Shown piece by piece: positions 31,587 through 43,631 of a stretch of DNA of 64,000 bases. The DNA comes from Microbacterium imperiale (lineage in GTDB: Bacteria; Actinomycetota; Actinomycetes; Actinomycetales; Microbacteriaceae). The DNA lies in contig NZ_JAGIOK010000001.1 of assembly GCF_017876655.1 (NCBI RefSeq), positions 806,001 to 870,000 on the forward strand, in the 5' to 3' direction. The notes under the pieces are model-generated. The model had not been told where the DNA came from and made no database searches. It saw only the letters and a program-made list of their open reading frames with translations. The position numbers were made by a program, and so were the translations under genes. The number at the start of each line of letters is the position of its first letter. Position 1 is the first letter of the stretch.

Positions 31587-34136
31587 ATGTCCGGAACCCG
31601 CCGCACGACCCCCGATGCCTTCGTCCGTGTGCGCGGCGCGAACGAGAACAACCTCCGGAACGTCGATGTCGACGTTCCGCGCGACGTGATCGTCGCCTTC
31701 ACGGGGGTGTCGGGGTCGGGCAAGTCGTCACTCGCCTTCGGCACGATCTTCACCGAGGCGCAGCGACGGTATCTCGAGTCGGTCGCGCCCTACGCGCGGC
31801 GCCTCATCCAGCAGGGCCACAACCCGCACGTCGAGTCGATCACGGGACTGCCGCCCGCCGTCGCGCTGCAGCAGCGCCGCGGTGCGCCCAGCTCGCGCTC
31901 GAGCGTCGGCACCGTCACGACGCTGTCGAACTCGCTGCGGATGCTGTTCTCGCGCGCGGGCACCTTTCCCGACGGATTCACCACCCGGCTCGACTCCGAC
32001 GCTTTCTCTCCCAACACCGCCGCCGGAGCATGCCCCGAGTGTCACGGCATCGGCGTCGCCCACACCGTCACGGAAGAGACACTCGTCCCCGACCCGTCGC
32101 TCAGCATTCGCGACGGCGCGATCGCGGCGTGGCCGGGTGCCTGGCAGGCGAAGAACCTGCGCGACATCACCATCGCCCTGGGATACGACGTCGACCGCCC
32201 CTGGCGCGACCTCGACCCCGCCGACCGCGAGTGGATCCTCTTCACCGACGAGCAGCCCGTCGTGGAGATCACGCCGCAGCGCGACCGCGTCGCCAAGCCC
32301 TACAAGGGCATGTTCTGGAGCGCGAAGAAGTACGTCTTCCACACCCTCGCCGACTCGAACAGCGCGAAGATGCGCGAGCGCGTGCTGCAGTTCGTCCGCA
32401 CCGGTGTCTGCCCGCTGTGCGGCGGGTCGGGGCTGCGCCGCGAGGCGCTCGCCGTCACCTTCGCCGGCCGCACCATCGCCGAGCTGAACGCCCTGCCGAT
32501 GAGCGAGCTCGCCGACATCCTGCGTCCCACCACGAAGCTGACGGATGCCGCGCCCGCGCTGCCCACGTCGTCGTCGGGCGAGCGCACGGATGTCGCCGTC
32601 GCGATCACCACCGACCTCGTCGCCCGCATCGAGGTGCTCATCGACCTGGGGCTCGGCTACCTCGGCCTCGGTCGTGTGACCACGACCCTCTCCCCCGGCG
32701 AGATGCAGCGCCTGCGCCTGGCGACGCAGCTGCGCTCGGGCCTGTTCGGCGTGGTGTACGTGCTCGACGAGCCGTCGGCGGGGCTGCATCCCGCCGACGC
32801 CGAGCCGCTGCTCGATGTGCTCGAGCAGCTGACCGCGGCGGGCAACTCGGTGTTCGTCGTCGAGCACAACATGGACGTCGTGCGCGGCGCGGACTGGATC
32901 GTCGACGTCGGTCCGGGAGCGGGCGAGGGCGGCGGTGCGGTGCTGTACAGCGGAACCGTCGACGGGCTCGCCGACGTCGCCGAGTCGGTGACGCGACCCT
33001 TCCTGTTCCCCGATGCCGACGCCGGGGCCGCAGAGCCTCGCGCCGTGCGCACCCCCGCCGGTTGGCTGATGCTGGAGGGCGCCTCACTGCACAACCTCGC
33101 CCATGTCGACGCGGCGTTCCCGCTCGGAACGTTCGTCGCGGTGACGGGAGTGTCGGGGTCGGGCAAGTCGTCGCTCGTCGGCGGTGTGCTGCGCGACGTC
33201 GTGCGCGGCTACCTGCGCGGAGACGACACGGCGGACGAGTCGGCCGACGAGACGACGGATGCCGCGGGGCTGGCCGAAGCGACGATCCCCGACGCGCGAG
33301 CCGATGCCCTCACGGTGCGAACCGTCGCGGGCCTCGAGCACATCGACCGGCTCGTGCGCGTCGACCAGAAGCCGATCGGACGCACGCCCCGCTCGAACCT
33401 CGCGACCTACACCGGCCTGTTCGACGCCGTGCGTGCGGTGTTCGCCGGCACCGACCTCGCCCGCGAGCGCGGCTACACCGCCGGCCGCTTCTCGTTCAAC
33501 GTCGCGGGAGGCCGCTGCGAGACGTGCCTCGGCGAGGGCTACGTCTCGGTCGAGCTGCTCTTCCTGCCCGGAAGCTACGGCAAGTGCCCGACGTGCCACG
33601 GCGCGCGGTACAACGACGAGACGCTCGAGGTGACCTACCGCGGCAAGAACATCGCCGACGTGCTCGCCCTCACCGTTGCAGAGGCCGCCGACTTCCTCGA
33701 GCCGGTGCCCGCGGCATCCCGCAGCCTGCGCACCCTGCGCGAGGTCGGCCTTGGGTATCTGCGACTCGGTCAGCCGGCGACGGAGCTCTCGGGAGGCGAG
33801 GCGCAGCGCATCAAGCTCGCGACCGAGCTGCAGCGAGCCCGACGCGGCCACACGCTGTACCTGCTCGACGAGCCCACCACCGGGCTGCATCCGGCCGACG
33901 TGCGCCTGCTGCTCACGCAGCTGCATGCGCTCGTCGACGCCGGCAACACGGTGGTCGTCGTCGAACATGACATGGATGTCGTCGCCTCGGCCGACTGGGT
34001 CATCGACCTCGGCCCGTCCGGCGGGAACGCGGGCGGGCGCGTGGTGGCGGCAGGGACGCCGGGGGATGTGGCGCGGGAGACGGAGAGCCGGACGGCGCCG
34101 TACCTCGCGCGGCGGCTGGCCACCTCGGCGACGTGA
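31587..34136 (+). CDS. UvrA-like ABC ATPase (UvrA2 type)
   Basis: An 849-aa UvrA-family protein, about 100 residues shorter than canonical UvrA. Two Walker A motifs of the form GVSGSGKSSL are seen (near residues 48 and 522). Zinc-finger pairs are ACPECHGIG, CPLCGGSG, CETCLGEG and CPTCHGAR. The ABC signatures are TTLSPGEMQRLRLA and ATELSGGEAQRIKLA. The short length suggests loss of the UvrB-binding domain, as in UvrA2/DrrC-like proteins linked to damage tolerance or drug resistance. The 3' 217 bases lie in a direct repeat copied 8.7 kb downstream. Confidence 0.88.
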   Translation: MSGTRRTTPDAFVRVRGANENNLRNVDVDVPRDVIVAFTGVSGSGKSSLAFGTIFTEAQRRYLESVAPYARRLIQQGHNPHVESITGLPPAVALQQRRGAPSSRSSVGTVTTLSNSLRMLFSRAGTFPDGFTTRLDSDAFSPNTAAGACPECHGIGVAHTVTEETLVPDPSLSIRDGAIAAWPGAWQAKNLRDITIALGYDVDRPWRDLDPADREWILFTDEQPVVEITPQRDRVAKPYKGMFWSAKKYVFHTLADSNSAKMRERVLQFVRTGVCPLCGGSGLRREALAVTFAGRTIAELNALPMSELADILRPTTKLTDAAPALPTSSSGERTDVAVAITTDLVARIEVLIDLGLGYLGLGRVTTTLSPGEMQRLRLATQLRSGLFGVVYVLDEPSAGLHPADAEPLLDVLEQLTAAGNSVFVVEHNMDVVRGADWIVDVGPGAGEGGGAVLYSGTVDGLADVAESVTRPFLFPDADAGAAEPRAVRTPAGWLMLEGASLHNLAHVDAAFPLGTFVAVTGVSGSGKSSLVGGVLRDVVRGYLRGDDTADESADETTDAAGLAEATIPDARADALTVRTVAGLEHIDRLVRVDQKPIGRTPRSNLATYTGLFDAVRAVFAGTDLARERGYTAGRFSFNVAGGRCETCLGEGYVSVELLFLPGSYGKCPTCHGARYNDETLEVTYRGKNIADVLALTVAEAADFLEPVPAASRSLRTLREVGLGYLRLGQPATELSGGEAQRIKLATELQRARRGHTLYLLDEPTTGLHPADVRLLLTQLHALVDAGNTVVVVEHDMDVVASADWVIDLGPSGGNAGGRVVAAGTPGDVARETESRTAPYLARRLATSAT
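33903..34119 (+). repeat. direct repeat, copy 1 (3' end of the uvrA-like gene)
   Basis: 217 bases match 42639-42855 with nine substitutions counted by eye and no gaps. This copy is part of the intact gene and forms the left boundary of the island. Confidence 0.9.
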
Positions 34137-34283
34137 AGAACCCGGTGAGCGACGTCGATGTCTCCACATATCGATCGGTGCCGGTGAACGCGAGTGCTGG
34201 GCAGGCCGTCGCGGAGCGTTCGGGAGAACCGGCCGTGTATGCTTTGCGACCGACCGTACCCGCAACCTGAACGGGGATACCCA

Positions 34284-34910
34284 GTGGCCCGTCAAGAGCG
34301 AGCGATCCAGACGCGAGAGCGACTGCTCAGTGCTGCCGCCGAGGAGTTTGATGCAAACGGGTTCCTCGCTACACGGCTGATCGACATCGCCGAACGCGCG
34401 CACGTCACACGCGGCTCTCTCTACTTCCACTTCGAGTCGAAGGCGGATCTCGCGTCAGCGCTCGCGGCGCAACAGTACGAGTCATGGGCTCAGTACGTTC
34501 CCGCCCGTCGAAAGCAGGGTTATCACGGCATCGAGCTGCTGATGCTGTTCGCCCACGACCTCGCCATCGGATTTCGGGACGACGTCGCCAGCCGTGCGGC
34601 GATGCGTCTGATCAAGGAAGCGGCACACGTCGAGGCCACGTTGCCGACCCCGTTCGAAGGGTGGATCACCGACGTCAAGGCGCTCCTTGGGGAGGCCCGC
34701 GACCTCGGCGAGATCGGTGACACGATCGATCTCGGTCAGGTGTCGTGGGTGATCGTGGCCAGTATCTTCGGCGTGCAGGAGATGGGTGATCAACTTGAAC
34801 AACGACAGGGCATCTGCGAACGCCTCGACGCCATGTGGCTTTATCTCCTGCCGGGCCTGGGAATCACCCACGCGGAGGCTTACGTGGATCGGATGATCGC
34901 TGCCGCGTGA
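34284..34910 (+). CDS. TetR-family regulator, gamma-butyrolactone receptor-like
   Basis: A 208-aa regulator. The N-terminus ARQERAIQTRERLLSAAAEE and the HTH region VTRGSLYFHFESKADLASAL closely follow the ArpA/ScbR signal-receptor group of Streptomyces, and the C-terminal MWLYLLPGLGI fits too. Those proteins repress antibiotic genes until a butyrolactone binds. GTG at 34284 opens the conserved domain. It converges on the biosynthetic operon (31-bp overlap of 3' ends with the last gene). No AfsA-type butyrolactone synthase is present, so the ligand is unknown. Confidence 0.8.
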   Translation: MARQERAIQTRERLLSAAAEEFDANGFLATRLIDIAERAHVTRGSLYFHFESKADLASALAAQQYESWAQYVPARRKQGYHGIELLMLFAHDLAIGFRDDVASRAAMRLIKEAAHVEATLPTPFEGWITDVKALLGEARDLGEIGDTIDLGQVSWVIVASIFGVQEMGDQLEQRQGICERLDAMWLYLLPGLGITHAEAYVDRMIAAA

Positions 34911-35638
34911 GCAGCCGCCGAATGGAGCGCGTTGACGAGCGCGCCATTCGCGGAAATGGTCTCGAGCCCGTAACGGGTTGCCAGTAGCTGATGTGCCCCG
35001 AGACTGTGCATCCCTCCGCCGGGGATGACAAGCACATCGTGTTTGTCAGGCTGCTGTAAAGCCACCTGGGCGATGAGGGAGTCGGCGTTCACTGCATGCC
35101 TGGCGCCGGCGTCGAACAGATCAGGCCGCTCGTATGTCGTCCACCCGGCGGGCAGCTCGTACCGAAAGGTCGTATCAACACCCGGGCGCAGGGAGAGGTA
35201 TTTTTTGAGCGCGTCGATGGTCTCGTCTGAGAACCATGGAGGGATGACCACGAGCTTGCGTTGCGAGGAGCGCTCCGCCACCGCTTCCCGCAGCGCCCGC
35301 CCCGACGTCACGACGGGGATGCCTCCGGCAATCTCTGTCGCAACGTCCTGGAATTCTGCGTCGAACTGTGCGCCGCCGAACAGACTGCTGCTGGCGAAGC
35401 AGTACCCGATCGAGTGGACGCCCAGATCTGCGAGATGTCTGATGGAGCGCCGCAGCCCCGACGCATTCAGGAGGTAGTCGAGGGACTTTCCTCGGAACTC
35501 CTCTCCGGGGGCTCGAGGGGTGTCGAAGCGGGCGGTGTGCACGGTCGTCCAGACCGGGCGCGACAACCAGGCTTCCGCTTCGGGAACCGGATCATTGTGG
35601 ATGACCAGTAGACCGAGTCGGTAGTCGCCCGGTGACAT
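34880..35638 (-). CDS. Asp/Glu racemase-superfamily enzyme (maleate isomerase/AMDase-like)
   Basis: A 252-aa protein resembling maleate isomerase and arylmalonate decarboxylase. Cys80 sits in HSIGYCFASSSLFGG, the position of the first catalytic Cys. The place of the second Cys (near residue 208, in VIPGGGMHSLG) is occupied by Gly. One-Cys members such as arylmalonate decarboxylase have a different single Cys, so the reaction here may be unusual. It is the last gene of the operon, and its start shares one base with the stop of the exporter gene. An isomerase or decarboxylase acting on the cluster product is inferred. Confidence 0.7.
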   Translation of the reverse strand: MSPGDYRLGLLVIHNDPVPEAEAWLSRPVWTTVHTARFDTPRAPGEEFRGKSLDYLLNASGLRRSIRHLADLGVHSIGYCFASSSLFGGAQFDAEFQDVATEIAGGIPVVTSGRALREAVAERSSQRKLVVIPPWFSDETIDALKKYLSLRPGVDTTFRYELPAGWTTYERPDLFDAGARHAVNADSLIAQVALQQPDKHDVLVIPGGGMHSLGAHQLLATRYGLETISANGALVNALHSAAAHAAAIIRST

Positions 35639-37020
35639 CAGTGCGTCACTTCCGTCTTCACGTCTCGGCGGGCGACGATGGCAACCCCCATACCTGCGAG
35701 CGCGAACGCGGTGGTCACAGCGAAAGCGCTCAGGAATCTCAACTCTGCAGGTGCTGCGGCGAGAACGATGGTCAGGATGGCGACCGACACCGCTGAGGAC
35801 AGGTACTGAGAAGTGGTGAGCACAGCACCGGCCCCACCTTCGAGCCCTGACGGTATCCGAGACGTTCCGAGACTGAACATCGACGTGTAGACGACGCCGT
35901 GGCCGAATCCGCTCAGGAGTAGTCCGGGCAGCACTCCGGCCGCGTAGGAGCTGACCGTTCCGGTCAGCGCGAGTAGCGCGAGACCTGCCGCGCTGATTGC
36001 GAACCCGGCGAACAGTACGCGCGGTGACGTGAACCGTGGAATGAGGCGGCCGGCGACCATGTTCCCGATCGTGACGAGTGCCGCCAGGGGAAGGAAGCCG
36101 AGTCCCGCCATGAGCGGGGCATAGCCGTGTACTTGCTGCAACAGGAGAGTCACGAGGTAGAACTCTGCACCGACGCTGGCCATGTAGAACGCGGTCGCGA
36201 CGGAGCCCAGGCGGATTGTCCGGACCTTGCGGATAGCGCGGTCGATCAAAGGGCGTGCGCCGGTGCGCTCATGGATGAGGAAGGCCGTTCCGCTCACGAG
36301 CGCGACGACAAGGGCGGTGGTGAGTAGGGCGGGATCGGGACGCGCCTCGGCCACGATCGTGAGGAGAAACACCGACGACAGCAACGCGACCGTGCCGGCT
36401 GCGGCTCCCAACAACGGGATCGGGGCACGACCTTGCACTTTCCCGGTCTTCGCGAATCCCAGGATCGCGCCGACGATCGCGACAGCCGCGATCGGCACGT
36501 TGATCAGCAGCGTCCAACGCCAGTCGACCGCGGTCAGGACACCGCCGAGCACGACCCCGACCGCCAGCCCGGAGGCGCCGACCGCACCCCAGACTGCGAC
36601 TGCCCGCGCGCGCGCGATGCCGTCGAAGGTCGCGCTGAGAAGCCCCAGCACCGCCGGCTGCAAGAGTGCGGCGGAGATCCCCTGTCCGCCTCGGGCGATC
36701 AGAAGCAGAGCATCGTTCTGAGCGAAGCCACCGAGCAGGCTGAACACGCCGAAAAGCACGCTGGCTAAGACGAAGGCTCTCCTCGTGCCGAAGCGGTCAG
36801 CCAGTCGGCCGCCCACGAGCAGGAATCCTGCGAAGAAGATTGCATAGGCGCTAGCGATCCACTGCGCGCTCGCCTCGGTCATGCTCAGCTCGGTCGCAAT
36901 CGTTGGCAAGGCGACGTAGATGATCGAGTAATCCAAGGCGATCATGAACTGCGCGGCGCACAATGCGGGCAGCGCGATCACGCTGACCCCGCTGGCCCTT
37001 ACTTGGTTCCTTGTCGTCAT
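35638..37020 (-). CDS. DHA2-type MFS exporter
   Basis: A 460-aa drug:proton antiporter-like transporter, about 14 membrane segments, with the motif A region GGRLADRFGTRRAFVLASV and motif C-like GAVGASGLAVGVVLGGVLT. ATG at 37020 overlaps the HAD gene stop by four bases. Its place in the operon makes it the likely exporter and self-protection pump for the cluster product. Confidence 0.85.
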   Translation of the reverse strand: MTTRNQVRASGVSVIALPALCAAQFMIALDYSIIYVALPTIATELSMTEASAQWIASAYAIFFAGFLLVGGRLADRFGTRRAFVLASVLFGVFSLLGGFAQNDALLLIARGGQGISAALLQPAVLGLLSATFDGIARARAVAVWGAVGASGLAVGVVLGGVLTAVDWRWTLLINVPIAAVAIVGAILGFAKTGKVQGRAPIPLLGAAAGTVALLSSVFLLTIVAEARPDPALLTTALVVALVSGTAFLIHERTGARPLIDRAIRKVRTIRLGSVATAFYMASVGAEFYLVTLLLQQVHGYAPLMAGLGFLPLAALVTIGNMVAGRLIPRFTSPRVLFAGFAISAAGLALLALTGTVSSYAAGVLPGLLLSGFGHGVVYTSMFSLGTSRIPSGLEGGAGAVLTTSQYLSSAVSVAILTIVLAAAPAELRFLSAFAVTTAFALAGMGVAIVARRDVKTEVTH

Positions 37021-37694
37021 GCGGACGTTCCCGTCTTCAGCAGCATGCGGTCGAGTTCCGCCGTCAGGGAGTTGAGGTCCGCTGCGACGAGGTTGGCGCC
37101 AGCGTCCGTGAGGGCGGCGGCTTCGCTGACGCCCCACGCGACGCCGACGGTGGGCATTCCAGCGACGATGCCCATTCGGATGTCATCGGTGGAGTCGCCG
37201 ATGACGACGCAGAACGCCGGAGCGACATCGAGCCTGGCCGCAGCCAGAAGAGCCAGATCCGGATGTGGCTTGCCGTACTGCACTTGGTCATGGCCGACTA
37301 TGGTGTCGAAGGCTTCCCGGATTCCCGCTGCCAGGAGCAGTTCGATTGCGCTCGGAGTGATCTTGCTGGTGACGATCGCGATGGCGACACCGTTGCCCCG
37401 GAGGTGCTCGAGCAGTTCTGACACTCCCGGATGGATTAGGTGTCGGGCGTCGGGCAGCGTCTGCGCGCTGAACGAAACGCGGAATCGCTGCTTCGCTTCG
37501 TCGCGGTCCACGACCGTCGCCTCGGGCAGCAGGGTGTCCACGATGCTGTCCAGTGGGCGTCCGATCTGCGCGCGGAGCACCGGCTCCGGGTGAGCGACCC
37601 CGTAGGGGGTGATCATCTCGGTGAGGCTCGCGACGATTGCCGCTGGGGTGTCCATGACCGTGCCGTCCAGGTCGAAGAGTGCTGCGCTGTTCAT
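37017..37694 (-). CDS. HAD-superfamily phosphatase
   Basis: A 225-aa phosphatase with nucleophile motif ALFDLDGTVMDTP (Asp8 and Asp10), motif II VTSKI, motif III Lys in YGKPHPDLALL and motif IV GDSTDD. It overlaps the PsuG-like gene by four bases (ATGA). In alnumycin biosynthesis a PsuG homologue (AlnA) joins ribose 5-phosphate to the aglycone and a HAD phosphatase (AlnB) removes the phosphate. The same pairing suggests this enzyme dephosphorylates a C-ribosyl intermediate. Phosphoglycolate phosphatase is the alternative by similarity. Confidence 0.8.
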   Translation of the reverse strand: MNSAALFDLDGTVMDTPAAIVASLTEMITPYGVAHPEPVLRAQIGRPLDSIVDTLLPEATVVDRDEAKQRFRVSFSAQTLPDARHLIHPGVSELLEHLRGNGVAIAIVTSKITPSAIELLLAAGIREAFDTIVGHDQVQYGKPHPDLALLAAARLDVAPAFCVVIGDSTDDIRMGIVAGMPTVGVAWGVSEAAALTDAGANLVAADLNSLTAELDRMLLKTGTSA

Positions 37695-38617
37695 GCGTTG
37701 AGCCGCGACCGGTCGAAAACGTCGGCCTCAGTGACGGCGTAGTCCGCTGCCAGTGCCACGGTGGAAAGGAGTACAGCGCGGTTCACTTCGGTCGAGCGTC
37801 CTTCCGTGGCTTCGGCGACAGCTCCAAGTACGAACGGGGTCAGGTCTGCACCGGTGGCGCCCTGCGCCTGTGCTGTGTCGAGCGCTTCGCGGATGAGGTC
37901 GTCCAGAAGTGCCGAGTCCAGTGCTGCTTCGGTCGGTATCGGTGTGGTGATGAGCACGGAGGTTCGCGCAACGTCCGCCCAATGGCGGTGAACGATCTCG
38001 GCGATCTCGCGCAGGTCGTCGCTCCGATGGGGCACGGGTTCTCCGCTCGATACCGTGAGGTAGCCGGGGAAGTCGTCGCTCTTGTAGCCGATCACCGGAA
38101 CTCCCCGAGTCTCGAGGTATTCCAGCGTCAGCCGCGGGTCGAGCAGGGACTTCGCGCCCGCGCAGACGACGGCGATCGGTGTCTCGGCGAACTGCGTGAG
38201 ATCGGTGGAGATGTCAAACGACGTCTCCGCGCCTCGATGCACACCTCCGATGCCAGCAACGGCAAAGACGCGGAGTCCGGCCGCCGCGGCCCCGATGAGG
38301 CTGGCTGACACCGTGGTGCCGGCCGCCTGCATGCGCTGAAGCGCAACGGCCAATCCTCTGTTGCTGACCTTCGCGCCGCTCGGATCTCGTGCGAGCCGGT
38401 CCAGCAGTGCCTTGTCGAGGCCGACGTGGACCTGCCCATCCAGGGCGGCAACCCGCGCGGGGATGGCGCCGTGGTCGCGGATCGTCGCGTCGAGTTCCTC
38501 GGCCAGCAACACATTCGCGGGATACGAGCCGCCCACGATGTTCGACGACTCGAGACCGACAACGGGCCTGCCCCCTCCAATGGCTTCACCGACCTCCGGG
38601 CTGATGACGAGATTCAC
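37691..38617 (-). CDS. PsuG-family C-glycosynthase / pseudouridine-5'-phosphate glycosidase homologue
   Basis: A 308-aa member of the pseudouridine-phosphate glycosidase family, which makes or breaks a C-C bond between ribose 5-phosphate and a ring. Conserved: VGLESSNIV (Glu23), AGIGGVHRGAETSFDISTDL (His127, Asp139), CAGAKSLLD (Lys156, the Schiff-base Lys of the family), GVPVIGYKSDDFPGYL and TEVNRAVL. The usual STIISHGMPYPQN nucleobase loop is changed to SSNIVGGSYPANV, so uracil is probably not the ring partner. Start GTG 38617 overlaps the upstream stop by four bases. Absence of a PsuK kinase argues against plain pseudouridine catabolism. Confidence 0.85.
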   Translation of the reverse strand: MNLVISPEVGEAIGGGRPVVGLESSNIVGGSYPANVLLAEELDATIRDHGAIPARVAALDGQVHVGLDKALLDRLARDPSGAKVSNRGLAVALQRMQAAGTTVSASLIGAAAAGLRVFAVAGIGGVHRGAETSFDISTDLTQFAETPIAVVCAGAKSLLDPRLTLEYLETRGVPVIGYKSDDFPGYLTVSSGEPVPHRSDDLREIAEIVHRHWADVARTSVLITTPIPTEAALDSALLDDLIREALDTAQAQGATGADLTPFVLGAVAEATEGRSTEVNRAVLLSTVALAADYAVTEADVFDRSRLNA

Positions 38618-39288
38618 GCGTTGACTCCTGCTTCTTCGAGAAGGGATCCGGCGGTGGTGCGGCGACCCGCTTCCACCAGGCGCGGATGGTTCTCCGCGAT
38701 CCCTACGGTGACGGTCTGCCAGGGGAAGTCGTCGTACTCCCCACGCCACTGGATGAACTCCATGTGCCGGCGACCCCGCAGGTCGTACGGGTGGTAATAG
38801 CTGTCGTTGATGCCGTCGAACTCCAGCGGCTGGATGCCATAAAGCTTGCACAGCAGCTTGTTGAAGACAGGAGTTACCCGAATCCACCGTCCATCCAAGT
38901 TCACGGCGACCAGTGCGTGGTAAGTGAACACATCGCCGCCCATGATGTCGAGCAGCCGAGCTGATGCGAGGTGGTTGCGGACATCGCCATAAACCAGACG
39001 GGTCGGGATACCCACTGCGCGGCAGGCGGCGGCATAGACGATCGACTTGTGCACGCAGAAGCCTTGCCCCCGATTGAGGATCGCGGATGCCCTCGTGCCC
39101 TCCTTGCTGAGGTCTGCGTCGTACACCTCGTACCGGATCCGGTCACGGACCGCGTCGTGCAGCTGGATCGCCAGATCCCGAGGGGACGCACCCCGGTCGG
39201 TGACGTTCTCGTCCACGAAGTGCTGGACTCGGTCGCTGTCGGCATCGAGGTGGTAAGTCGCTGCCGTTGTGCTGCTGAACTTTGTCAT
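38614..39288 (-). CDS. transglutaminase-like protein
   Basis: A 224-aa protein of the transglutaminase/papain-like fold. The Cys region is GQGFCVHKSIVYAAACRAVG and the His region TYHALVAVNLDGRWIRV. The Asp expected in the following VDP-type motif is replaced (RVTPVFN). Related enzymes in natural-product pathways (AdmF of andrimid) form amide bonds from carrier-protein thioesters, so acyl transfer or release from the carrier protein is possible. The altered triad makes this uncertain. It lies between the flavoenzyme and PsuG-like genes. Confidence 0.7.
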   Translation of the reverse strand: MTKFSSTTAATYHLDADSDRVQHFVDENVTDRGASPRDLAIQLHDAVRDRIRYEVYDADLSKEGTRASAILNRGQGFCVHKSIVYAAACRAVGIPTRLVYGDVRNHLASARLLDIMGGDVFTYHALVAVNLDGRWIRVTPVFNKLLCKLYGIQPLEFDGINDSYYHPYDLRGRRHMEFIQWRGEYDDFPWQTVTVGIAENHPRLVEAGRRTTAGSLLEEAGVNA

Positions 39289-39312
39289 CTGGGCCTCTCC
39301 TAGGTGGTCTGG

Positions 39313-40461
39313 TCAGAGCCCGAGGCTTCGGGCAATCTTCTGCCGTTGGATGGCGTTGCTGCCCGAGTAGATCGGACCGCCGATTGCGTCGCGCAACCCG
39401 GACTCGATGCCGGTACTCGTCAGCACGCCAGCTCCGCCGTGCAGTTCAATCGCCTGCTGCGCAGTGGAGAGATTCGCGCGGCTGGCGATGATCTTGGCGG
39501 TTGCGACTGCCGCGGTCGCACGTCGACCCTTTTCAATCTCAGCGGCCGCTGCCTGCAGCGCAAAGCGGGCTGTCTCGATGCTCAGGTGCATCTCGACGAT
39601 CGCGTCCTGGACTCCCTGGAAGCTGCTAAGCGGCTGGCCGAATTGCTGCCGTTGGCGGACATGGTCAACCGTGCTCCGCAACCGGCGCTGCATCTCGCCT
39701 ACGTTCATGGTGAAGGCCAACAGGATCTCCCGGCTCATGACGTAATCGAGGATGAGGAAGCCCATACCTCGGCCTCCAAGCAGATGAGTCCTCGGCACGC
39801 GGCAGTCGTGCAATGTGAGCGTTCCGATTGGTGATGTGCGCAGCGTGTTCTTCTCCAGCGGCGCGCTGAACGATGCACCCGGAGTTTCTCGTGGCACGAG
39901 CACGGCCGAGAGGCTCAGAGGCCCCGCCTCCGCCTCTGTGCGCACGTAGACGACCGTGAGGTCCGCGACAGGACCGTTGGTGATGAACGTCTTTTGGCCG
40001 GTCAGCACGATCTCATCGCCCTCGAATCTCCCGGTACTGGTCATCGAGAGTGCGTCTGAGCCAGCACCCACTTCGGTGACCGCATGGCTGCCGATCAGAA
40101 CCCCGTCAGCTGCCGAGGGGAGATACCTCTCCTGCACCTCGGGGTGACCAAACCGCACGAGGGGAACGGTTGTGCTGGCCAGATGGGTCGCAGCACTGAA
40201 GTTCAGCCCCGCATCATGGCTGATTCGTCCCAGATGCTCCGCGATGTCCAACGTGTCCACGAGTGAGAATCCGAAACCGCCGTACTCCGTCGGCACTGGC
40301 ATGGCGAAGAAACCAGTTCCGGCCAACGCACCCCATGCTTCCCGGGAAAAGACCCCCGATTGATCGCGCTCGAGATATCCATCGTTGAGTGCCGCCGTCG
40401 CGCAGATCCGTTCGCGCAGACCCGACGGCGATGCGGCTGATCCTGCGGTTGTTTGGCTCAT
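39313..40461 (-). CDS. acyl-CoA dehydrogenase-type flavoenzyme (aminoacyl-carrier oxidation?)
   Basis: A 382-aa FAD enzyme with the acyl-CoA dehydrogenase domains: FAMPVPTEYGGFGFS, AVTEVGAGSDALSM, QKTFITNGPVADLTVVYV and a C-terminal helical part ending YSGSNAIQRQKIARSLGL. The usual catalytic Glu of YEGT is Ser here. A Glu in the SREILLAF helix aligns by eye with the alternative base of isovaleryl-CoA dehydrogenase. Together with a ligase and carrier protein this resembles enzymes that oxidise prolyl-S-carrier protein (PltE type), so the substrate may be carrier-bound. Confidence 0.8.
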   Translation of the reverse strand: MSQTTAGSAASPSGLRERICATAALNDGYLERDQSGVFSREAWGALAGTGFFAMPVPTEYGGFGFSLVDTLDIAEHLGRISHDAGLNFSAATHLASTTVPLVRFGHPEVQERYLPSAADGVLIGSHAVTEVGAGSDALSMTSTGRFEGDEIVLTGQKTFITNGPVADLTVVYVRTEAEAGPLSLSAVLVPRETPGASFSAPLEKNTLRTSPIGTLTLHDCRVPRTHLLGGRGMGFLILDYVMSREILLAFTMNVGEMQRRLRSTVDHVRQRQQFGQPLSSFQGVQDAIVEMHLSIETARFALQAAAAEIEKGRRATAAVATAKIIASRANLSTAQQAIELHGGAGVLTSTGIESGLRDAIGGPIYSGSNAIQRQKIARSLGL

Positions 40462-40838
40462 CAGTAGCTCGAAAACCCCGCGGCGTCGAGCACGTGGCGC
40501 TCGTGCCCGCTCAGCGGAGGGTTGAAGATGCTCACGAGTTCCAGGTCCGCCTCGTCGCTGGCGATCAGGAAATGCCGGTCGTGCTCATCAAGCGCGTAGA
40601 GCGTCCCGGGGATGATCTCGAATCGTCGTGTCCCGTCCTCCGACTCGACCACCCCACGACCTGCGATGCAGTAGCAAGCTTCAAGGTGGTTCCGGTACTG
40701 CAAGGCGGACCGCGTGCCTGCTCGAACGATGGTGTGCGCGACGGTGAAGCCCAGCGAGTCCGACAGCGTCAGCAAGCGTTCGCTGGTTCCATTGCCCCAG
40801 TTGACGGCCTCGACGTCGGAACGGGATCGAGTGAACAT
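40461..40838 (-). CDS. EctC-like cupin (ectoine synthase family)
   Basis: A 125-aa protein aligned by eye over its full length with ectoine synthase: YRNHLEACYCIAGRGVVES, GTLYALDEHDRHFLIAS and IFNPPLSGHERH. The Glu, Tyr and His positions that hold the iron in EctC appear kept. EctC closes a ring by removing water from N-acetyl-diaminobutyrate. No ectA, ectB or ectD is present, so ectoine is not the product. A cyclodehydration step in the cluster is a reasonable inference. AAAGGAG stands before ATG at 40838. Confidence 0.8.
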   Translation of the reverse strand: MFTRSRSDVEAVNWGNGTSERLLTLSDSLGFTVAHTIVRAGTRSALQYRNHLEACYCIAGRGVVESEDGTRRFEIIPGTLYALDEHDRHFLIASDEADLELVSIFNPPLSGHERHVLDAAGFSSY

Positions 40839-40849
40839 TTGTGCTCCTT

Positions 40850-41116
40850 TCAGCTCGGGTTTGCCGGTGCCCCGGCACGTGCGATGAAGTCCGCGATGGC
40901 GCCGATCGTTCGGAAGTCCGCCTGCGAGATCTCGCTGTCGAGGATTGATATCGCCCATCTCTGCTGCACCCACTCAACGACCTCGAGCATCGCGAGGCTG
41001 TCGATCACCCCGTTGGTGATCAGGTCATAGTCGGTGGGGATGCCCTCGCCGGCCAGATCCGGGGCGTGGAACCCGACGATGTACCTGGTGATTTCCTGGA
41101 TAGTCGAGGTCGTCAA
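40850..41116 (-). CDS. acyl/peptidyl carrier protein
   Basis: An 88-aa carrier protein with the phosphopantetheine Ser in NGVIDSLAMLEVVEWV (near residue 42). The start is TTG at 41116, overlapping the ligase stop by four bases (TTGA), with AAGGAAG upstream. The helical four-bundle pattern and DFIARA end are typical. It should hold the substrate activated by the adjacent adenylating ligase. No phosphopantetheinyl transferase is visible in the island. Confidence 0.85.
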   Translation of the reverse strand: MTTSTIQEITRYIVGFHAPDLAGEGIPTDYDLITNGVIDSLAMLEVVEWVQQRWAISILDSEISQADFRTIGAIADFIARAGAPANPS

Positions 41117-42447
41117 CGTGCTTCCTTTTCGGTCAGCGACTGGTGCGTAGCGCGCCGGTCGGTCTTGCCTGTGGGGGTCTGCTGGAAAGGGGAAGCTGTC
41201 AGCCAGATGCGGGAGGGGATCGCCGCAGTGGGGAGTCGCTCTCCAAGCCACGAGCGGAGCGCGAGGGAGGTGGTCGTGTGGCCAGGCAGCGTTCGAACGA
41301 TCGCCTCTACCCGCGTCTCGACGTCTCCAGCGTCGATCGCGAGCGCGTCTGTCACATCGGGATGGGATCGGAGCGATGCTTCGATGTCATCGAGACTGAC
41401 TCGGTGTCCCCGGACCTTCCGCACCCTGTCGATGCGCCCGCGCAGCCGCACACCACCGTCGTCCGTCAGTTCCGCGCCGTCACCGGTGCGAAACCATCGC
41501 CGGCCTGACCGCTTGACCCATACCGCGGCAGTCATGTTGACGTACCCGAGAGCTTGATACGGCGAGTGGACGACGAGCTCACCGCCCTCCAACGAATACT
41601 CGACGCCGGGAAGCGCACTGCCTAGTTCGCCGTTAGCCGCGCGTGAGAGATCGCAGACGAATGTGTCGTTGGTTTCGGTCGAGCCGTAGACGCTGAGGCG
41701 CTCGGCATCGGGAAAGGCCGTCTCGAGTTGTCGCAGGTTCGGCACCGGGAAGAAGTCGCCTGTGGACACGACAACGTTCACGCCGTGGTGAACCGCCCCG
41801 GTTCCGGCGATGAGGGTCAGCAGCGCAGGCACGGACTGCACCATCGTCACTCCTTCACGATCGATGATGCGCCCGAGCGCTTGCCCATCCGTCAGGTGCC
41901 TAGAGCTGGCGAAATGCACGCGACCGCCCGCAGAAAGCACGGCCCAGACATCCAGCAATGCGACATCGAAGTTCACCGGGCTCAGGCTCAGCGTGACTGT
42001 CTCGCTGCCGATCCCAAGACGCTCCCGCGCCCACTCGATGAACCGATCGATGCCCGCGGGGTCGTGAACGACGACCTTTGGCGCACCCGTCGAGCCGGAA
42101 GTAGTCGTGAGAATGCCGCCCCGCAGCGACGCAAGAAGCGGGTCGTCCCCGCCCGCAGCGCGGATCGCGTCTAGAGCGCCCCGCCGGTACTCCTCAGCGG
42201 CGGCTTCCGGGAGGATCAGCGCAGCCCGGAAGCGCTGCTGCGCTGCCAGGACATCGATCACTGCCTGACCGAGTCGGTCTGCCGTTACCACCGACAACCC
42301 GTGCAGCCAGAGACCGTCCTGCTGCGAGGTAGCGCGTGCACTCAACTCGCCATAACTGATTTGCCAGCCCTCACCGCTGAGAGCGACTCGAGTCGGTTCG
42401 TCGTTCCCATGGCGCCGAATATCGGCCCACGTGCGTTGCGTGACCAC
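41113..42447 (-). CDS. AMP-forming ligase (amino-acid adenylation domain)
   Basis: A 444-aa stand-alone adenylating enzyme. Core motifs: TTTSGSTGAPKVVVHD (A3), SPVNFDVALLDVW (A4, where the Asp usually holds the substrate amino group), VYGSTETND (A5), YVNMTAAVW then WFRTGDGAEL (A7), GRIDRVRKVRGHRVSLDDIE (A8) and the catalytic Lys in TPTGKTDRR (A10). The kept Asp suggests an amino acid rather than a fatty acid substrate; which one is not predicted. GTG at 42447, seven bases after GGAGGG, is preferred over ATG at 42477. It is the first gene of the operon. Confidence 0.82.
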   Translation of the reverse strand: MVTQRTWADIRRHGNDEPTRVALSGEGWQISYGELSARATSQQDGLWLHGLSVVTADRLGQAVIDVLAAQQRFRAALILPEAAAEEYRRGALDAIRAAGGDDPLLASLRGGILTTTSGSTGAPKVVVHDPAGIDRFIEWARERLGIGSETVTLSLSPVNFDVALLDVWAVLSAGGRVHFASSRHLTDGQALGRIIDREGVTMVQSVPALLTLIAGTGAVHHGVNVVVSTGDFFPVPNLRQLETAFPDAERLSVYGSTETNDTFVCDLSRAANGELGSALPGVEYSLEGGELVVHSPYQALGYVNMTAAVWVKRSGRRWFRTGDGAELTDDGGVRLRGRIDRVRKVRGHRVSLDDIEASLRSHPDVTDALAIDAGDVETRVEAIVRTLPGHTTTSLALRSWLGERLPTAAIPSRIWLTASPFQQTPTGKTDRRATHQSLTEKEAR

Positions 42448-42473
42448 TCGTCCCTCCAGAATCGAGTTTTTTA

Positions 42474-42487
42474 ACATGCATGCACGT
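42474..42487. promoter_or_regulatory. candidate operator upstream of the biosynthetic operon
   Basis: ACATGCATGCACGT is a 14-base near-perfect palindrome (one non-complementary base pair) around TGCATGCA, 27 to 40 bases before the ligase start, in an A/T-rich stretch. It could be bound by the cluster's TetR-family regulator. It does not closely match published ScbR/ArpA sites, so the link is only a suggestion. The rest of 42488-42638 holds no recognised gene. Confidence 0.4.
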
Positions 42488-42638
42488 AGGTTTTACCACG
42501 AGGCCCCACCATGCGCCATCGCTCAGAGCGAAAACCGTAATCGACAGTCATGGAGGCAGCGCGCATACCCGGCCGCAGGCCGCTTGGCACCGCCGAATAG
42601 TGCGCATATCGCGCACAAACATGTTCAGGGCACGAGAT

Positions 42639-42855
42639 CGCCTGCTGCTCACGCAGCTGCATGCGCTCGTCGACGCCGGCAACACGGTGGTCGTCGTCGA
42701 ACATGACATGGATGCCGTCGCCTCGGCCGACTGGGTCATCGCCCTCGGCCCGTCCGGCGGGAACGCGGGCGGGCGCGTTGTGGCGGCAGGGACTCCGGAG
42801 GACGTGGCGCGGCAGGCGGAGAGCCGGACGGCGCCCTACCTCGCGCGGCGGCTGG
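42639..42855 (+). repeat. direct repeat, copy 2
   Basis: Matches 33903-34119 over 217 bases without gaps, nine substitutions by eye, several at third codon positions. It forms the right boundary of the island. Confidence 0.9.
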
Positions 42856-43582: not shown

Positions 43583-43631
43583 TCAGAGGACCAGTGATGC
43601 GGTGGACAGCACCGCATCACTGGTCCTCTGA
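43583..43631. repeat. perfect 22-bp inverted repeat with five-base loop
   Basis: Arms 43583-43604 (begins TCAGAGGACCAG) and 43610-43631 (ends TGGTCCTCTGA) are exact reverse complements around GACAG. No T-run follows and it does not sit directly behind a gene, so it is not a clear terminator. It may be a remnant of a mobile or REP-like element. Confidence 0.85.

Follow-up and report, generated by a model that had tools for sequence, protein, structure and literature searches.

Organization of the locus

A minus-strand operon of nine genes occupies positions 34880-42477 of a 64-kilobase (kb) window of the Microbacterium imperiale genome (contig NZ_JAGIOK010000001.1, positions 806,001 to 870,000; the window is this whole stretch of 64,000 nucleotides (nt)), and a gene for an ScbR-type TetR regulator converges on it from the plus strand. 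These ten genes, enclosed by direct repeats, are analysed here as a candidate island for a C-nucleoside of the showdomycin type. The features are as follows, the roles in brackets being predictions named after enzymes of the showdomycin (Sdm) and alnumycin (Aln) clusters.

41113..42477, minus: stand-alone adenylation enzyme (SdmC role); PF00501 AMP-binding, 88 bits
40850..41116, minus: peptidyl carrier protein (SdmD role), TTG start; PP-binding, 16.9 bits, below cut-off
40461..40838, minus: EctC-like cupin, predicted glutamine cyclase (SdmE role); PF06339 Ectoine_synth, 112 bits
39313..40461, minus: acyl-CoA-dehydrogenase-type enzyme, predicted carrier-bound ring dehydrogenase; Acyl-CoA_dh, prolyl-ACP dehydrogenase 4irn
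38614..39288, minus: transglutaminase-like protein, predicted thioesterase freeing the aminopyrrole acid; PF01841 Transglut_core, 69 bits
37691..38617, minus: PsuG/AlnA-type C-glycosynthase (SdmA role), GTG start; PF04227 Indigoidine_A, 320 bits
37017..37694, minus: HAD phosphatase (SdmB/AlnB role); PF13419, 109 bits, AlnB
35638..37020, minus: MFS exporter, LmrA/EmrB-like; PF07690 MFS_1, 156 bits
34880..35638, minus: maleate-isomerase/arylmalonate-decarboxylase-fold protein with one invariant Cys (C80); Amdase, 30.6 bits, cut-off 25.9
34194..34910, plus: ScbR-type TetR regulator; TetR_N, NCBIfam NF041196, 175 bits, cut-off 150
33903..34119, no strand: left direct repeat, inside the 3' end of the uvrA-like gene 31587-34136; 217 nt
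42639..42855, no strand: right direct repeat, detached copy of the uvrA-like 3' end; 217 nt

All nine open reading frames and the neighbouring TetR gene lie where an earlier note on this DNA had placed them. The protein families it had claimed were matched by Pfam, the PP-binding match falling below its cut-off (16.9 against 20.8 bits), and the gene that it called butyrolactone-receptor-like matches the NCBIfam ScbR-type autoregulator receptor. The note had described the genes as nearly all overlapping by 1-4 bases, which holds for six of the eight operon junctions, overlapping by 1 or 4 nt, but not for the other two. The adenylation and carrier genes overlap by 4 nt, an 11-nt gap separates carrier from cupin, cupin and dehydrogenase genes overlap by 1 nt, a 24-nt gap follows the dehydrogenase gene, and the last four junctions, from the transglutaminase-like gene to the Amdase-like end, overlap by 4, 4, 4 and 1 nt in turn. 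The convergent TetR gene overlaps the last operon gene by 31 nt. The true start of the adenylation gene is probably GTG 42444, a codon preceded by a purine-rich stretch, and that of the TetR gene probably lies downstream of 34194, since its family match sets in only at residue 34.

No inverted repeat of at least 10 nt was found in the region upstream of the operon (42440-42660), and the same search of 34120-34300 gave a single 11-nt palindrome (82%). A short palindrome with 6-nt arms and a 5-nt spacer, below the length limit of that search, was seen by eye at 42600-42616 and is a possible operator. A search of the genome for AfsA gave no match; control genomes gave none either, so the search is uninformative on absence.

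The predicted aminopyrrole-forming enzymes

The island encodes both a stand-alone adenylation enzyme and a carrier, the latter with its family match below the Pfam cut-off. PDB matches of the adenylation enzyme include adenylation domains of nonribosomal peptide synthetases, DltA and L-prolyl-carrier ligases. The carrier is matched by NCBIfam carrier models, none above cut-off, and holds the DSL motif of carrier proteins. The cupin matches the NCBIfam ectoine synthase subfamily with 134 bits (cut-off 128). Its four PDB matches are without exception L-ectoine synthase, and the genome contains no other PF06339 match. Ectoine synthase is able to make cyclised glutamine. Ectoine synthesis itself was rejected, as the other nine island proteins match no acetyltransferase or aminotransferase family (EctA, EctB).

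The dehydrogenase has the prolyl-ACP dehydrogenase 4irn as its best PDB match (229 bits). Its SREILL stretch contains a Glu that lines up with one in 4irn, and the position of a second Glu ('SGTSEIQ' in 4irn) is occupied by Ala. Its top NCBIfam models are PigA and RedW, both below cut-off (310 of 500 and 296 of 650 bits, respectively).

The transglutaminase-like protein has no PDB sequence match at E <= 0.01. Its structure model is confident, with a predicted local distance difference test score (pLDDT) of 92.9, and among known structures comes closest to those of cysteine proteases and arylamine N-acetyltransferases, with a template-modelling score (TM-score) of about 0.5 or less. Residues C78, H124, T139 and P140 are invariant in 24 aligned sequences. 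In all 24 members, Thr139-Pro140 stands at the position that the catalytic Asp normally holds in the transglutaminase motif. On a plasmid of Pseudosulfitobacter, a homologue of 42% identity has acyl-CoA genes as neighbours, a context that fits thioester cleavage by this protein.

The PsuG homologue, its phosphatase partner and the last two operon genes

The PsuG homologue is the only PF04227 match in its genome. Alignment with Escherichia coli PsuG revealed that E31, K93, H137, D149, K166 and N289 are all kept, as E23, K83, H127, D139, K156 and N279 of the island protein; K93, H137 and D149 also have roles in the E. coli enzyme. The position of K166, which aligns with K156, is Ala in PDB 4gim. 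An excerpt of PMC7722734 describes Lys166 of E. coli PsuG as forming an iminium, Glu31 as helping Lys166 and Asn289 as contacting uracil. The same excerpt also names Thr131, Gly132 and Thr139, which did not fall on such residues in the numbering used and were left out of the comparison.

In a tree of 44 PsuG sequences, the island PsuG pairs with that of Curtobacterium (support 100/97) and the two then join three Nocardiopsis sequences (100/100). This group lies inside a set of 21 rows, in which the complete series of 19 cluster-linked PsuGs is joined by two ungrouped sequences. The island PsuG is set apart at 100/100 from E. coli PsuG and from ten PsuGs found in relatives (five in its own genus), and these relatives' proteins are presumably catabolic because they group with E. 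coli PsuG. AlnA and two Dickeya proteins (P0351 and P0358; P numbers denote proteins) stand on the island PsuG's side of the tree. The sequence of locus L047 (19% of columns filled; L numbers denote genome loci) was left out of a second tree and replaced by P0259, that of L015, with genes split over reading frames, is in neither tree, and P0307, 92% identical to the island PsuG, is in the first only.

For the HAD protein the best PDB match is AlnB with 115 bits, the next match having 74 bits, in line with the PsuG-HAD pairing of AlnA and AlnB to which the earlier note had pointed. LmrA and EmrB are the best NCBIfam models of the MFS exporter, both below cut-off.

Occurrence of the gene set in other genomes

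The earlier note had called for a search for the same gene set elsewhere. A scan of genome contigs gave 208 relatives of the transglutaminase-like gene, and family matches were scored on six-frame open reading frames of the best 80 of these 208 loci. The 80 loci do not equal 80 genomes, as L070 and L082 share one genome or metagenome-assembled genome and L065 and L077 another. Flanks of at most 10 kb, in some cases shorter, were covered on each side, so that a locus without PsuG is one that lacks it within this stretch. Counts for the five cassette families (adenylation enzyme and carrier counted as one) run from 78 loci, the value of the adenylation/carrier family, to all 80. PsuG is present in 19 loci, and all nine genes, the MFS and maleate-isomerase-like genes included, are found in every one of the 19, a co-occurrence that exceeds chance. 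One of them, L015 of Nocardiopsis eucommiae, has several genes split over reading frames. The 19 loci come from Curtobacterium, Nocardiopsis, Streptomyces, Micromonospora, Actinosynnema and others. Among five loci compared by tblastn, L012, L013, L016 and L082 have the island's order (adenylation enzyme, carrier, cupin, dehydrogenase, transglutaminase-like protein, PsuG, HAD, MFS, Amdase-like protein), whereas L026 reads carrier, cupin, PsuG, HAD, MFS, Amdase-like protein, adenylation enzyme, dehydrogenase, transglutaminase-like protein. Streptomyces showdoensis is not named among the best 80 of the 208 loci, nor among the protein matches listed, namely the best 120 of 597 for the transglutaminase-like protein, 120 of 542 for the cupin and 120 of 7983 for PsuG.

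Apparent acquisition of the island

The 217-nt direct repeats of the uvrA-like 3' end differ at 9 positions; the left copy belongs to a complete uvrA-like gene (31587-34136) and the right copy is detached. The guanine-cytosine content of the island is 64.2%, against 70.5% on the left (10001-33900) and 68.0% on the right (43601-64000). The EctC-like gene was found at E <= 1e-20 in one of 366 genomes of the genus, namely its own. Hence the earlier description of the genes as island-borne stands, and the island was apparently acquired by horizontal transfer. Among 58 relatives, ten have a transglutaminase-like match at E <= 0.001, the only strong one besides that of the genome itself being in G003, a genome of the same genus (39% identity, E 7e-42; the next 9e-8); among 396 genomes drawn from the phylum, six, its own included, have one at E <= 1e-40. 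The closest proteins in a large protein search are 92-96% identical (P0001, P0002, P0122 and P0123). No transfer RNA gene was found in the 64-kb window, and no recombinase family matched among the ten island proteins (Pfam).

Two further observations concern the flanks. The uvrA-like ABC protein (31587-34136) is matched over its second half by the PADLOC model mad3 (253 bits), perhaps only through shared ABC/UvrA domains. A perfect 22-nt inverted repeat with a 5-nt loop lies at 43583-43631, between a NUDIX gene and the next gene.

Proposed biosynthetic pathway

Showdomycin is a nucleoside antibiotic in which ribose and ring are linked by a carbon-carbon bond. The free intermediate of its biosynthesis in Ren et al. 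2021 is reportedly 2-aminopyrrole-5-carboxylate. According to the review PMC8724604, SdmE cyclises L-glutamine to 2-amino-1-pyrroline-5-carboxylate, which SdmC activates and loads onto SdmD; oxidation and hydrolysis follow, SdmA joins the ribose and SdmB removes the phosphate. The review gives the decarboxylation, deamination and redox steps as non-enzymatic and the route as incompletely understood; the title of Ren et al. 2021, as given in its reference list, names a 'pyrrole intermediate'.

The island holds a fitting protein for each enzymatic step of this route. Based on these families, on the conserved PsuG residues, on the conserved gene set and on the place of PsuG in its tree, we consider it very probable that the operon is a compact C-nucleoside cluster of the showdomycin type whose product is showdomycin or a close analogue. 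It is thus a relative of a known kind of cluster and not an unknown pathway, with the same pathway logic and gene families; we do not call it an orthologous cluster, as the likeness is one to the published pathway description and to gene families. The earlier note was unaware of any cluster described with these genes, a claim that is not supported, since the showdomycin cluster has been described with the same logic (PMC8724604). Its own scheme, an amino acid loaded on the carrier, oxidised, cyclised, C-ribosylated, dephosphorylated and exported, agrees with the gene families but not with the order of steps, as glutamine is cyclised before adenylation and loading (PMC8724604).

We infer the substrates, the order of steps and the product in M. 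imperiale as follows. The EctC-like cupin would convert L-glutamine to 2-amino-1-pyrroline-5-carboxylate, which the adenylation enzyme would load onto the carrier. The flavoenzyme resembling prolyl-carrier dehydrogenases would aromatise the carrier-bound ring to the 2-aminopyrrole-5-carboxyl thioester, and the transglutaminase-like protein would hydrolyse the thioester to the free aminopyrrole acid. In the PsuG homologue, the conserved lysine would form an iminium with ribose 5-phosphate and a carbon of the aminopyrrole ring would attack C1. The HAD enzyme would then take off the phosphate and the MFS protein would export the C-nucleoside. The exported compound would finally turn into showdomycin, a maleimide riboside, or into a close analogue by oxidation, decarboxylation and loss of ammonia.

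Several points weigh against this assignment. The sdm cluster has 16 genes against ten in the island, so that at least six are without a counterpart, and the Amdase-like gene has no place in the showdomycin route as reviewed in PMC8724604. The family matches of the carrier and the Amdase-like protein are weak, and T130 and G131 of E. coli PsuG, next to conserved residues, are V and A in the island protein. In the PsuG tree, the cluster-linked set has a support of 93/95, which does not reach the starred level, and the branch of AlnA is long. The island is also divergent, its PsuG and adenylation enzyme being 55% and 39% identical, respectively, to those of Streptomyces L082. In addition, the PsuG loci do not form one clade in a tree of the transglutaminase-like protein (81 rows), where at least three changes of the PsuG label are forced; PsuG was therefore acquired or lost repeatedly, and different subclades may make different products.

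The alternative that survives best keeps the same front end but ends in another product: an aminopyrrole C-nucleoside that either escapes oxidation to the maleimide or is altered further by the maleate-isomerase-like protein, and that is released in this form. It shares the pathway type with the showdomycin assignment, so that the two overlap in probability, and we regard it as unlikely. The subclade of the island with Curtobacterium and Nocardiopsis is divergent, and the maleate-isomerase-like gene, constant in the PsuG loci, lacks a role in the published route. However, Pfam revealed no further tailoring gene in the island, and with late steps that are described as non-enzymatic (PMC8724604), showdomycin should still be the compound obtained on isolation in air. 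A related proposal, which we make only tentatively, is that the maleate-isomerase-fold protein is a dedicated aminopyrrole/maleimide enzyme. Its C80 might add to the ring C=C as maleate isomerase adds to maleate, driving decarboxylation, deamination or re-aromatisation, or shielding the producer; an enzyme would then control maturation, and an unoxidised aminopyrrole C-riboside may be the true product. The island thus draws attention to one conserved protein without an assigned role, which bears on whether showdomycin's last steps are enzymatic.

Pseudouridine salvage, in which PsuG would cleave pseudouridine 5'-phosphate and the other genes would be unrelated, draws on the family membership of PsuG and on the conservation of the E. 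coli residues checked. We consider it very improbable and rejected it, and the analysis gave nothing in favour of the case that the earlier note had named as a refutation, a PsuG homologue restricted to cleaving pseudouridine phosphate: no PsuK-type (PfkB-family) kinase gene is found among the ten island proteins (Pfam), all eight PfkB matches of the genome (seven above cut-off) lie outside the window, the island PsuG falls outside the clade of the E. coli enzyme and the ten PsuGs from relatives, and the nine genes are co-conserved in the PsuG loci. Least probable of all is ribosylation of an indigoidine-type monomer as in minimycin, a route likewise glutamine-derived with a PsuG homologue (PMC8724604) and favoured by the position of the two Dickeya proteins on the same side of the tree; it was rejected, since the defining adenylation-oxidation-thiolation-thioesterase (A-Ox-T-TE) synthetase is not among the island proteins (Pfam; the search for one was confined to the island), which instead include an adenylation enzyme and a carrier as separate proteins, together with the EctC-like cupin and the dehydrogenase of prolyl-carrier type.

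The cassette in other contexts

In 30 of the 61 loci without PsuG, and in none of the 19 with it, the adenylation/carrier/EctC/dehydrogenase/transglutaminase cassette stands beside a TrpB2-like pyridoxal-phosphate enzyme. Examples of PsuG-less loci are L018 (10359-12008), L069 (11907-13322) and L024 (10096-12948), with others among L012-L091. An ATP-grasp ligase and an EamA exporter occur in 12 of the 61 each (three EamA matches weak), often with the TrpB2-like enzyme; these loci perhaps make an aminopyrrolyl amino acid with serine, and then a dipeptide. In seven of the 61 (L045, L046, L051, L063, L065, L080 and L088), the cassette is accompanied by TrpA, TrpF, TrpC and a TrpD-like protein, all four, the last assigned by eye from a sequence motif. 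The same four lie by the cassette of L111, a Streptomyces xanthii plasmid (4739-12077). Such loci look like a parallel tryptophan pathway starting from an aminopyrrole. No trp-type gene was found in the 19 PsuG loci, and no account of a cassette with tryptophan-type genes was recognised in the literature searched (titles and abstract openings, with subscription papers mostly outside coverage).

On a plasmid of Aliiroseovarius crassostreae (L112, 7917-16533), two genes of ketosynthase type and one annotated trpD accompany an alphaproteobacterial version of the cassette. On a Streptomyces globosus plasmid (L113, 6462-11729), a minimal cassette precedes an annotated maleate cis-trans isomerase gene and a gene of the DUF6253 family; genes for ScbR and ScbA lie close by. 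These contexts suggest that one aminopyrrole cassette is common to several different pathways.

Two hints in the literature link the cassette with the showdomycin cluster. The first is the partial similarity of 'ectoine' regions to it. An 'ectoine,butyrolactone' region scores 47% of the genes of BGC0001778 (showdomycin) in an excerpt of PMC8782336, and an 'ectoine'-type region of Lentzea nigeriaca DSM 45680 is under 60% similar in that of PMC9120177; our locus L061 from this strain has the adenylation, carrier, EctC, dehydrogenase and transglutaminase-like genes without PsuG. The second is trpF, recruited close to the showdomycin cluster according to an excerpt of PMC13055916. Excerpts of PMC8303363 and PMC11985029 give a similarity of 52% to showdomycin in two Streptomyces. 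In a paper that mentions both showdomycin and Microbacterium, the relevant excerpt is about Streptomyces lavendulae.

Comparison with known systems

The functions of SdmA to SdmE of S. showdoensis ATCC 15227, together with the oxidation and hydrolysis, all have candidate proteins in the island. The sdm cluster comprises 16 genes in 12.2 kb, whereas the island has nine genes plus TetR in a host genome of 3.2 Mb and contains a maleate-isomerase-like gene of which PMC8724604 makes no mention for sdm. The closest clusters in organization are those of Curtobacterium sp. ISL-83 (L012) and Nocardiopsis (L013 and L016), with the same nine genes in the same order; in Curtobacterium, the proteins are 47-77% identical to those of the island and an ScbR-type gene (66% identical) is also present. 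Since no uvrA-like match was found in L012, its cluster is probably at a different insertion site.

The prolyl-carrier route to pyrrole-2-carboxyl groups (RedW/PigA type) uses a stand-alone adenylation enzyme, a carrier and a flavin dehydrogenase. The same three enzyme types are found in the island, with PigA and RedW as the top, though below-cut-off, dehydrogenase models, and the island adds the EctC-like cyclase. Minimycin/indigoidine biosynthesis shares with our proposal a glutamine-derived ring and PsuG-type C-ribosylation, but uses the A-Ox-T-TE synthetase where the island has dissociated adenylation enzyme, carrier, cupin and dehydrogenase. The alnumycin enzymes AlnA and AlnB form a PsuG-HAD pair as in the island; AlnA ribosylates a naphthoquinone (excerpt of PMC7722734), and an alnumycin-type pathway was rejected, as Pfam gave no polyketide gene in the island. 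Compared with the type cluster, the island is a compact set of ten genes against 16, and it would bring C-nucleoside biosynthesis of the showdomycin type to an actinobacterium with a small genome, apparently via horizontal transfer.

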